Source: Lasiosphaeria ovina
Taxonomy: Eukaryota; Ascomycota; Sordariomycetes; Sordariales; Lasiosphaeriaceae
Reading direction: 5' to 3'
NCBI GenBank assembly: GCA_033439765.1
Contig: JAULSN010000004.1
Location: 1,932,001-1,996,000, forward strand
Length of the DNA stretch: 64,000 nucleotides
This document shows, in pieces, positions 29,711-51,950 of this stretch. Position 1 is the stretch's first letter. The number at the start of each line of letters is the position of its first letter. Made by a program: the position numbers and the translations under genes. A model generated the notes under the pieces. It was not told the origin of the DNA. It ran no database searches and saw nothing but the letters and a program-made list of their open reading frames with translations.

Positions 29711-29829
29711 ACATACGACCATAGGCACTGGAAAATTCGGGATCCCGTCCGCTCTCCCATAGACAAGCCAGCGACCGCCAGACTAGTAGTTGGGTGGGTG
29801 ACCACCAGCGAATCCCTGGTGTTGTATGT
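29711..29829 (+). rRNA. 5S ribosomal RNA gene, intact
   Basis: The sequence begins ACATACGACCATAGG and ends GTTGTATGT, followed by a T7 terminator run. It contains the conserved CCCGTCCGCTCTCCC and the internal control region GTAGTTGGGTGGGTGACC, then ACCAGCGAATCCCTG. Ends pair as the terminal helix (ACATAC / GTATGT) and GGCACTGG pairs with CCAGCGACC. The layout matches Neurospora-type dispersed 5S genes, about 119 nt. RNA polymerase III transcription is expected from the internal box and T-run. Confidence 0.96.
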
Positions 29830-29869
29830 TTTTTTCTTTCCTTTTGGATATTTAGTGGGGATTTCCTTG

Positions 29870-48247: not shown

Positions 48248-48337
<90 letters not shown>
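48248..48337. repeat. (TGCTGT)15 hexanucleotide array
   Basis: Fifteen uninterrupted TGCTGT units, 90 bp, 145 bp beyond the preceding gene. Perfect units suggest recent expansion and length polymorphism. Confidence 0.95.
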
Positions 48338-48607
48338 CGCTTGTGTTGTTGTCTTGTCTTGCTGATGTTTATCTACGGAGGTGACCCTTTAATGCTCTGC
48401 CCTGTAAGCTGTACGTATGCACATACGGCGGACTTTTTTAAAGTTTTGAATCATCCTTGGCCTTGTCGGTATTCTCGCACGACAAACACAATACCAGATG
48501 CACAGTCTGTTGCACCGCACTGCAATATTTAGCTCCAACGAGACCATCAACCTCAAAGCACTTACACCCGAAGGGCTTGTTGGGCCATTACGTATAGAAC
48601 TTGATAG

Positions 48608-49240
48608 CCCTCCTTGGGGCTAAAAATTGCAGTGCAGCTTCGCCGGTTCCGATAGGAGCGCAGAGGGGGTAAGAATTCGATGGCCTCCTTGGAGCTAGAA
48701 ATTGCTGTGCAGAGACAAGACCCGACCACAGCCACAAGGCACATTTTTGGTTCCTCAAGGCGTGCTTGGATCTCCATGGCCTCCTTGGAGCTAAAAATTG
48801 CAGTGCAGAAAACTACCATTGGCTCCCAAATTCGACGCAACAGTCATACATGCAGTCAGCGGTATGTGCGACCCCAGCAGCGTGTCTGTCGACCACGGAG
48901 GGAACCAATGTAAAATGCTTCCGACATGCTGGAAACAGTACCATATAGCGGACTCGACCTGTAGATGCACTCTGGTGTAGTGTCGATGAGAGAGCGGAGA
49001 TGGTTGGTGAGGCCTGTTTTGAGCCAAAATGTGCAGTGTTCTCTCGATACCCAGCCATTCACTATGAGAACGGAAGTGGCGGAATTGAGGTAAAGGAGAG
49101 CGGAGGGGTTGGTTTCGAGGTCTCATTGGGAGCTAAAAATTGCAGTGCAGATCTGACTCCCGTAGATAAGATATTCTCCAAAGTCTTAGTTATAGGAGTC
49201 AAGGAGGCAAGACCTCCTTAGAGCTAAAAATTGCAGTGCA
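48608..49240. repeat. Five spaced copies of a ~30-bp repeat
   Basis: The core GCTAAAAATTGCAGTGCAG, preceded by CCTCCTTGGA, occurs at 48608-48637, 48683-48712 (two changes), 48778-48808, 49119-49150 and 49211-49240. Core spacings are 74, 96, 343 and 90 bp. All copies are in the same orientation. The left half CTCC-TT-GGAG is a small inverted repeat and the right half ends in near-palindromic TGCAGTGCA. Sequence between copies is unrelated. A weaker match (GAGCCAAAATGTGCAGTG) lies near 49020. Confidence 0.85.
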
Positions 49241-49585: not shown

Positions 49586-49656
49586 ACATACGACCATACC
49601 CATTGGAAAATTCGGGATCCCGTCCGCTCTCCCAGTCAGACGAACCAATGAGGGCA
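49586..49656 (+). pseudogene. 5S rRNA gene fragment, 5' part
   Basis: ACATACGACCATACCC...TTCGGGATCCCGTCCGCT matches the intact 5S gene at 29711 up to and a little past CTCTCCCA. CCCATTGG can pair with CCAATGAGG, so helix II is present. The match stops at about ATGAGGGCA (49648-49656). The control region and 3' half are missing here; they reappear at 51889. Confidence 0.9.
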
Positions 49657-50006
49657 ATCTTAGTTACCGGAGTCAGAAGAATTCTGTAGTTACCGGAGTC
49701 GTAGACCTACTATTAATTGGATGTACCTAATAAGGTCACGATTGCTAAACGGATACCAAAACATAGCAACATAGCAACTAGCTTTTACCCCTACTCTCTC
49801 TTCTCTCCGATGCCGAATAGCTATGCAACTCGGGACCGCTTGAATTTGTCCGTGGCCTTGCGGTAGCTTCCCCTGAGGCTTAGCTTGGAGACCTTGTCCT
49901 CCTCTCCTTTATCAATGCCCTTGCCTTTATCAACGCTGATAACACAAACACTCATCTTCTGCTCTCCTTTCTGCATACGAACACTCATCTTCTGCTCTCC
50001 TTTCTG

Positions 50007-50152
50007 CTCTTCATCATGGCCATCGCCATCCTTGATCTGCTCGATGGGTGGATGCTCTTCATGGCCATCGCCATCCTTGATCTGCTCGATCTGCTCGATG
50101 GGTGGATGCTCTTCATGGCCATCGCCATCCTTGATCTGCTCGATAGGTGGAT
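50007..50152. repeat. ~45-bp tandem repeat (three units) in HNH pseudogene
   Basis: Units CTCTTCATGGCCATCGCCAT..TGATCTGCTCGATGGGTGG occur three times; the second has an extra CTGCTCGAT. On the minus strand they encode IKDGDGHEEHPPIEQ. A separate 27-bp unit (ACACTCATCTTCTGCTCTCC...) is duplicated just before, at about 49948-50006. Confidence 0.85.
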
Positions 50153-51380
50153 GGGGAGGGTTAGTTAGAGTAGGGAGATCCTAGCTGCCTTGTCCTTTCT
50201 CCTCCACCTTCTTACCCTTCTTTGTCGCTCTCTACTCAATATACTCAGCATGCCGCTCTTGGTAAGCTTGGTAAGCTGCCTCTGAAAAATAGCGCCTCCA
50301 TCCTTCCGCGGCCTCCACGCTAAGTATACCTTCTTGTTATGCAGCTTCGATGAGCATTTCCCAATCGCCAGGCATATATGCTTCATCCCGAACTGGGCCT
50401 TTAATACTCGGCGGTGGGCGGCGGAAGATGTCTTTTAGAGCCCCGGCAGCCTTCATACTAGCGAGCAATTTTTGTATGGCGTACCCGAGTCTCAGGAAGT
50501 CTATGTTTGGCAACGGGCATATTACTTCGTCCGCCGTCATAAGCTCATACACATCCCCATATTCGATAGCCGGAAAGGTATTGTTATCCCTACTACCGCG
50601 TCGGAAATCGGTAATAGTTCCGTTCTTTCCGTAGTCCTACGGACTTCGGGCGAGGTTGCCTTCTATTGAGATATCCTTCAGCTATACCATTTGTAGATAA
50701 AGCCGATGAGTCGGATCCGTAGGATGCTCAAGGGGTCGGAGGGCAAAGTAGTACTTATCCCAAAATTTATGGGCGTTAATCCTTAGAGGGAGAATATTCC
50801 GCTTTTCGTCGCCGCTAATTTTGAGATCGTCAAGATCCTTAAACGGCTAGAAAGCTCTCAATATCTCCTAGATTTTATAGGTATCCTTAGCTAGTCCTAT
50901 TTTCTTTATAACTCGGATATCAATAATATGAGCTACTTCTAATAAGAAAGTGGCGCCAGTAAGGGTACACATCTTATTATACTAGCCTAGGACGATTTTT
51001 TAGGTATCCCGATCCTCTTTAGGGCGATTAGGATCTTACTTATTATTTTAGTACTAGAGCTCCCCTAACTTATCGATATCGCGGAGGTAGCGATTATAGA
51101 GTGCTTTATACCTACGTTTAGCGAATTTGAACTTTTTCATTTTTATAAAATACTTGAACTACGTAATATTAGTGGCTTCAAGGGCCGAAGTTAGGTTATG
51201 GAGAATGGCTAACAAGCTATAGTAATTTTTTAGTATACCTATATCGACTTCGGGGTCGCGAAAATCGGCCTCAGGATCGGAGTCGCCCCTTACTCCGCGT
51301 ATTCGTTCTTTAACAAAAGCGATAAACCGTCGTCTGAGCTCCCTATCTATTAATGGGAACCCAGAATCGGAGACGGTGGA

Positions 51381-51541
51381 CTACGAGTCGAACATTTCCG
51401 ACGGCAAATCGGAAAGTTGAGAAGGACCATACGATGCCTGCGATTCACCCGGTGCCGGTAGTGTGGGCTGCGAGTCGAACATTTCCGACGGCAAATCGGA
51501 AAGTTGAGAAGGACTATACGATGCCTGCGATTCACCCGGTG
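51381..51541. repeat. 87-bp direct repeat in HNH pseudogene
   Basis: Two nearly identical units, 51381-51454 and 51468-51541, with an 87-bp period (29 codons). At the matching codon one unit has CAG (plus-strand CTG, 51468-51470) and the other TAG (CTA, 51381-51383), a CpA->TpA difference. Confidence 0.9.
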
Positions 51542-51888
51542 GTTCCCAGGCGATTGGGTAGTTGCCGACGAACTCGACTTGGATAATGGCCTGGGGCTGG
51601 TCTAGCTCCATGACGAACGACGCCTGATTGGCAAAGTCAGCCTTGGTTACAAAAAGAAATATCTCAATACATACCGACGCTCAAAGCAAAAGGCGTAGGT
51701 AGCTGAAACTGTTGCTAGGAAGGAATGATTTCGAATATGGAGGGGCGAAAAAAAAAATTGGTAGAGGAAATGGCAGTATTTTAGCGCGAGCCTCGGTAAA
51801 TGACGTCAACCCTACCATCTCCTCTTTTCGTAGGCAAATGGCCGTGGTAACCCAAAATGGGCACTTTTGAGCCCAGGAGAGAAGGGTT

Positions 51889-51950
51889 ATGAGGGGCAGA
51901 CGAGTAGCTGGGTCGGTGACGACCAGCGAATCCCTGGTCAACGTTGTATG
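51889..51950 (+). pseudogene. 5S rRNA gene fragment, 3' part
   Basis: GAGTAGCTGGGTCGGTGACG ACCAGCGAATCCCTGGT...GTTGTATGA matches the control region and 3' end of the intact 5S gene at 29711, followed by T-rich sequence. It begins at the repeated ATGAGGGGCA. Together with 49586-49656 it would make one full-length 5S gene. Confidence 0.9.

Follow-up and report, generated by a model that had tools for sequence, protein, structure and literature searches.

A 5S rRNA gene in the 64,000-nucleotide stretch of the Lasiosphaeria ovina genome that was analysed (the window) is broken after its position 68 (68/69), with both parts preserved in order and orientation (49586-51950), by an insert which is probably a miniature, captain-less member of a family of 5S-targeting Starship transposons, moved in trans and carrying an HNH nuclease gene as a passenger. 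The insert comprises 2,241 bp (49656-51896, one repeat copy included). Starships that target 5S genes are already known. Passages of the study that describes the Enterprise-family Osiris Starships report that these insert in 5S rDNA and fragment it, that 5S-targeting elements have direct repeats over 6 bp and that Starships are moved by a tyrosine recombinase (PMC12153272), the captain; in part of a second study DUF3435 genes are named as tyrosine recombinases (PMC12134995).

The 5' part of the gene (positions 1-68; 49586..49655, forward strand) was recognised as an RF00001 match from 49586 and ends in the left copy of a direct repeat; its first 49 nt are 94% identical to the intact 5S gene that starts at 29711, and over positions 1-68 it shows 89% identity to L006. 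The 3' part (positions 69-118; 51897..51950, forward strand) has a 4-nt insertion near its end and is 85% identical to the gene at 29711 over 54 nt. When joined, the parts align along the whole of the intact gene L068 with a few substitutions and three insertions, two of a single base and one of 4 bases (one of the mismatches comes from the use of base 49656 in place of 51897 in the join), which upholds the description in the initial annotation of one 5S gene in two ordered parts of the same orientation. The outer limits given there, a start at 49586 and a 3' part reaching 51950, were retained, but position 49656 is an insert base and the 3' part begins at 51897.

The boundaries of the insert carry an 8-bp direct repeat, ATGAGGGC on the left (49648-49655, forward strand) and ATGAGGGG on the right (51889-51896, forward strand), which is part of the 5S target, as is typical of Starship boundaries. 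The near-duplication noticed earlier at these edges is present, at 8 bp rather than 9-10 bp, and the extra G that had been supposed is a C/G difference. At the other four left junctions bearing the window type of tip the core reads TGAGGGC (three) or CAAGGGC (L011). Across the genome (51.7 Mb, 32 contigs) 47 5S matches were scored among 2,894 first-look candidates, and all 47 were read; most have GAGGGC, AAGGGC, GACCGC or AATCGC ahead of CAG. Intact 5S paralogues served as the proxy for the empty site in this comparison, which covered one genome with no allelic empty site seen. The gene at 29711 (29711-29830, 83.8 bits) is of the GACCGCC type and lies about 20 kb from the split one. Just upstream of the latter the window holds four copies of a GCTAAAAATTGCAGTGC motif with a partial TAGTTATAGGAGTC match (48625-49240), and a hexamer array (TGCTGT, 15.7 copies) occupies 48248-48341.

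Breakage of 5S genes is recurrent in this genome. Searches with the insert, with 5S halves and with a diverged tip recovered at least 16 broken 5' halves, the counts being lower bounds as the 5S-half searches scored the best 40 of 67 and the best 40 of 74 candidates. Nine of the 16 end at 68/69 with related tips directly attached: the window-type tip is found in the window, L011, L024, L025 and L028, and related, diverged left tips, 73-80% identical to the tip of the window or of the 56-kb element described below and joined at the same base, occur at L092, L093, L101 and L106. The initial annotation had proposed to look for recurrent insertion at the same 5S point, and this recurrence, together with the shared tips, bears out the view of the insert as a mobile element with 5S genes as its recurrent target. 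The other seven broken 5' halves are L094, L095, L097, L098, L099, L100 and L102 (L096 was left out because the gene is nearly intact). No recognisable tip was found at L094, L097, L099 and L100, at L098 one lies only about 300 bp away, and an inverted tip was seen by eye in L095 and L102, of which only L102 gave a weak match (E 7e-4). Among at least eight 5S 3' halves, five have the right tip of the window insert. Eleven flanks of 500 bp from eight split loci showed no mutual similarity, and on the upstream side the comparison could be made for six of them (the window, L011, L092, the 56-kb and 14.4-kb elements and the partial copy on C31), again with no similarity, so these six loci represent separate insertions.

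The tips are the features that relate the insert to much larger elements. The left tip (49656..49761, forward strand; about 106 bp) begins with AATCTTAGTTACCGGAGTC and the right tip (51848..51896, forward strand; about 49-50 bp) ends with GGAGAGAAGGGTTATGAGGGG; both are common to a 56-kb and a 14.4-kb element and may be named by their sequences, AATCTTAG and GAGAAGGGTT. A subterminal direct repeat within the left tip, TAGTTACCGGAGTC (49661..49674, forward strand), with a second copy at 49687..49700 (forward strand) detected by the repeat search, is a putative recombinase binding site. The left tip together with its 5S part (178 bp) is 92% identical to the 56-kb element and 89% identical to the 14.4-kb element, and the right tip with its 5S part (105 bp) is 90% identical to the 56-kb element; tip identity between the latter and the window insert is 89.5-92%. 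When up to three mismatches were allowed, a 35-nt pattern of the left end was found at six genome sites, five of them joined to 5S 5' halves, and a 24-nt pattern of the right end at five sites, all adjoining 5S 3' halves, against none for the reversed control of either pattern. The similarity of the window insert to the large elements is confined to these tips (about 106 bp on the left and 49 bp on the right). No exact match to the left tip was found in viral contigs.

The larger of these relatives, of about 56.0 kb, lies between two 5S halves at C31:520022-576061 (between search marks) and is strongly RIP-affected, with a TA/AT ratio near 1.7 over most of its length. The 14.4-kb element (C27:5086123-5100544, reverse strand) is likewise flanked by 5S halves and bears the tips of this family; it has no RIP signature and contains an open frame matching DUF7924, the one assignment from five scanned of its ten frames of at least 150 aa. 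Two partial copies of the 56-kb element were also recovered, one from C31:2959410 onward, which begins inside a 5S gene with the left tip (95% identity over the 15.6 kb fetched), and another on C12 up to 23976, whose right tip likewise lies in a 5S gene (94.6-96.4%); as both lie near contig ends, they may be one copy broken by the assembly. The C12 partial copy bears an insertion of about 6 kb with 300-bp end repeats and frames that look retroelement-like by eye, and one copy of the 300-bp repeat also occurs in L011. At C23:5632690-5654966 two same-strand 5S halves, possibly the ends of one element, stand about 22 kb apart, with the family right tip and an unrelated sequence at the left junction. 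No match to relatives of the HNH protein was obtained in either the 56-kb or the 14.4-kb element at E 0.01, a null result in which RIP could mask a gene in the former but hardly in the latter.

A captain was recognised in the 56-kb element. A decayed DUF3435 gene (PF11917), which reads inward as Starship captains do, lies 1.0-3.2 kb inside its right end and is also present in one partial copy. Its frame can be read only with stops read through, and its Pfam score is modest: scanning of the frame gave 24.7 bits, which falls short of the cut-off (25.8), and a shorter frame gave 28.6. Comparison of the captain frame with a DUF3435 protein of Lasiosphaeria miniovina (P0002, 615 aa), the sole match among 6001 candidates, gave E 2.4e-119, with 61% identity in the best local stretch, which covers 24% of the query. 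By tblastn P0002 matches both copies of the right end (C31:572846-575071 and C12:20761-22980) and 17 genome stretches, of which the best, C12:1256900-1258442, begins about 0.5 kb from the 5S 5' half with a diverged left tip at L092. This locus (5129-8500 of L092; C12:1255628 onward) holds a less mutated DUF3435 captain, and its position next to a left-type tip, as against the right tip in the 56-kb element, counts against the reading of the window insert as a miniature Starship. None of the 18 matches listed in a genome-wide PF11917 search is the captain of the 56-kb element, and tblastn with a different DUF3435 copy from this genome found no captain. With Pfam no captain was detected at the left end of either the 56-kb element, where one frame matched a protein kinase, or the partial copy on C31, nor in the 14.4-kb element (right end and two of its three left-end frames), nor at the C23 right tip.

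The interior of the window insert consists of an HNH_2 nuclease pseudogene (PF13391; 50181..51611, reverse strand) of 477 codons including the last stop, with 13 stops before it. The HNH_2 domain (50739..50969, reverse strand; residues 215-291 of the read-through frame) was recognised with E 5.1e-5 and 23.5 bits, above the cut-off of 21, with stops read through. The single HNH-like gene of the initial annotation is therefore confirmed as to its family, but it is degenerate: of the 14 stops, the last coincides with the end of the homologue P0003 and seven fall at Trp positions of all three aligned homologues, which points to an RIP-type mutation pattern. A protein search among the 7,998 candidates sharing most words with the query yielded 13 homologues at E <= 0.001, predicted full proteins of 370-508 aa with 33-63% identity (62% for the best-scoring), the named ones belonging to Echria, Chaetomium, Lasiosphaeria, Immersiella and Cercophora. 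The HNH_2 family has 29 matches across this genome. As had been noted at the outset, the insert is devoid of a visible transposase, LTR or long inverted repeats: no transposase was recognised (the HNH frame was scanned with Pfam; other listed ORFs have at most 99 aa), neither the ORF list nor the Pfam scan of the HNH frame revealed a DUF3435 frame, no LTR was found, and inverted repeats were limited to short or weak ones, at most 25 nt long (72%), with a 21-nt pair at 76% linking 49788-49808 with 51876-51896.

When the insert was searched against the genome 31 matches were obtained, 13 of them on contig C32. With pieces merged and a match of at least about 600 bp required, these correspond to eight HNH copies: the window, L010, L011, L012, L013 with L017, L014, L015 and L016. 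5S sequence adjoins two of the eight, on both sides in the window and on the left side only in L011; none was detected within 1.5 kb on each side of the other six (blast at E 0.001 and covariance model). The initial annotation had named beforehand HNH copies away from 5S genes as an observation that would speak against a targeted element; such copies make up this majority, although several of them are truncated and do not show the original insertion place of their unit. L011 has the left tip and the HNH interior in one colinear stretch within another 5S gene. It shows the left end only, and its upstream flank is unrelated to that of the window, so the small HNH unit may have been mobile on more than one occasion. 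Three features of these copies count against the miniature-Starship reading: L012 has an intact left tip away from 5S, both tips are present only in the window copy, and the right end of L011 is a different sequence common to L010. Beyond the region that they have in common with the other copies, L010 and L011 both continue into TTATCTCAGCAA..CTCAGACCAGTACCG, which forms another type of right end.

Tips in common, insertion at one and the same base, a repeat that matches part of the target and a relative that has a captain all agree with site-specific integration of the tyrosine-recombinase type. In such a mechanism the DUF3435 captain of the large members would recognise the two tips, about 106 bp long on the left and about 50 bp on the right, and a crossover in a short shared core, either GAGGGC or a similar sequence with GC at its end, would join the tips to 5S at 68/69 and leave the 8-bp repeat. 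As the window element has kept both tips, which it shares with an autonomous-type member, and has no recombinase, as a non-autonomous derivative would, movement in trans by a captain is the simplest account of it. The HNH_2 gene would form a passenger interior, this copy having been inactivated by C-to-T changes of RIP type. A passenger is the plain reading of the HNH protein, and a satellite nuclease is possible. The 2.2-kb elements might be nuclease-bearing satellites of Starships, keeping only the two tips of a Starship, moved by its captain in trans and with an HNH protein that may work with the helper or oppose it; this is quite unlikely, and such elements would be to transposons what satellites are to phages. 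The supposition that an HNH element was itself aimed at 5S genes did not hold, as the 56-kb and 14.4-kb elements use the same point and tips and gave no HNH match at E 0.01. Homing, in which the nuclease would cut 5S genes here and repair of the break would copy in the insert, was rejected because elements without a detectable HNH gene occupy the same 5S point; the idea draws on the location of a nuclease gene in a multicopy RNA gene and on homologues of similar length in other Sordariales, but the six HNH copies without 5S alongside oppose it, an 8-bp repeat and shared tips are unexpected under it, and it is highly improbable and largely refuted.

The small size of the insert might instead reflect decay, either of a full-length 5S Starship that lost its interior in place or of leftover tips that an HNH gene entered. 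Such a history is unlikely, though it accords with the decayed state of the insert, with the failure of genome searches with the insert and the tip patterns to find a second two-ended copy, and with a partial account of Starships losing their captains and becoming derelict (PMC12134995). The same left tip and HNH interior are, however, colinear in L011 behind an unrelated upstream flank, and decay occurring twice would not leave identical interiors in two 5S genes. That the two 5S parts come from different genes joined by a rearrangement, as the divergence of each part from intact genes could suggest, has a practically negligible probability, given that the joined parts restore one gene over its whole length and that two other loci (56 kb and 14.4 kb) show the same two-sided layout and tips.

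Among known systems, the miniature Starship proposed here is closest to Osiris of Aspergillus fumigatus (Enterprise), which, in the passages that describe it, is likewise found in 5S coding sequence with repeats >6 bp and has a tyrosine recombinase captain, as does the 56-kb relative. The type elements described in that study have sizes from 16,357 bp upward (PMC12153272), whereas the window element has 2.2 kb and no captain; at 2,241 bp with one gene it lacks the giant size and cargo of Starships. A link to Enterprise is at most putative, the point of agreement being the 5S target. Derelict, captain-less Starships, as far as they are presented in the section concerned (PMC12134995), share with the window element the presence of tips without a captain, but the left tip of the HNH element stands in two separate 5S genes and the element looks mobile. 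Fungal HNH_2 (PF13391) proteins are of similar length and predicted full-length, in contrast to the degenerate copy described here. No report of a non-autonomous miniature or 2.2-kb Starship-ended element was found among the open-licence papers searched, and the term "mini-starship" did not occur in the part of it that was searched; the use of "non-autonomous" found in a Starship context concerns, in the passage seen, a Tc1/mariner-type element inside a Starship, the "nonautonomous" passage of PMC11620798 deals with mimp elements, and none of the terms sought occur in PMC12289983 and PMC11623301.

If small Starship-tipped elements do move, about 106 bp plus 50 bp would suffice for mobilisation by a captain, and such elements would offer a compact substrate for testing captain recombination. 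Annotation would then have to widen, Starships being described by captain and large size in the sections of the literature consulted. The proposed family accounts for the repeated breakage of 5S genes at one base in this genome. Aspergillus nidulans reportedly has 5S pseudogenes with a foreign 3' half, in literature of the 1980s-90s; a 5S 5' half is joined in them to repeated foreign sequence, a likeness of value as a lead only. It is a reason to revisit such fungal pseudogenes.

A resemblance of the left tip to the absent 3' half of the 5S gene is suggestive only, shuffles, registers and folding giving it weak or no support. Rfam 5S model scores at the left junctions were 45.9 (L028), 43.2 (L025), 42.0 (L011), 38.2 (L024) and 34.9 (window), four of the five exceeding the gathering score of 38, and at all five the model was reported at full length through the tip; the right junctions scored lower (28.9, 27.8 and 24.4, with none listed for L038). 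The first 73 nt alone reached 33.9 in L028 vs 40.9 in an intact gene, which as a whole scored 88.9. In register, the window tip is identical to 5S at 19 of 51 positions (p about 0.04 by shuffling), and another register reaches 21. A position score, from a model built on the 38 of 47 5S genes of exactly 120 nt, gave together with helix I pairs a joint shuffle p of 0.001-0.016 and a genomic null of 457/127,896, and a shifted register does equally well on the position score. Helix I pairs can re-form, and the RNA folded no better than shuffles (z 0.52).

Two further observations concern the diverged tips. At L107 (C4:780235 region), at about 130-290, only a short core separates a weakly matching right-type tip (E 7e-4) from a left-type tip (94% over 36 bp), a layout as expected of tandem elements or of an integrated circle junction. 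The diverged left tips of L092, L093, L101, L106 and L107 have a run of 7-8 T about 25-29 nt in, which could be a candidate Pol III terminator.
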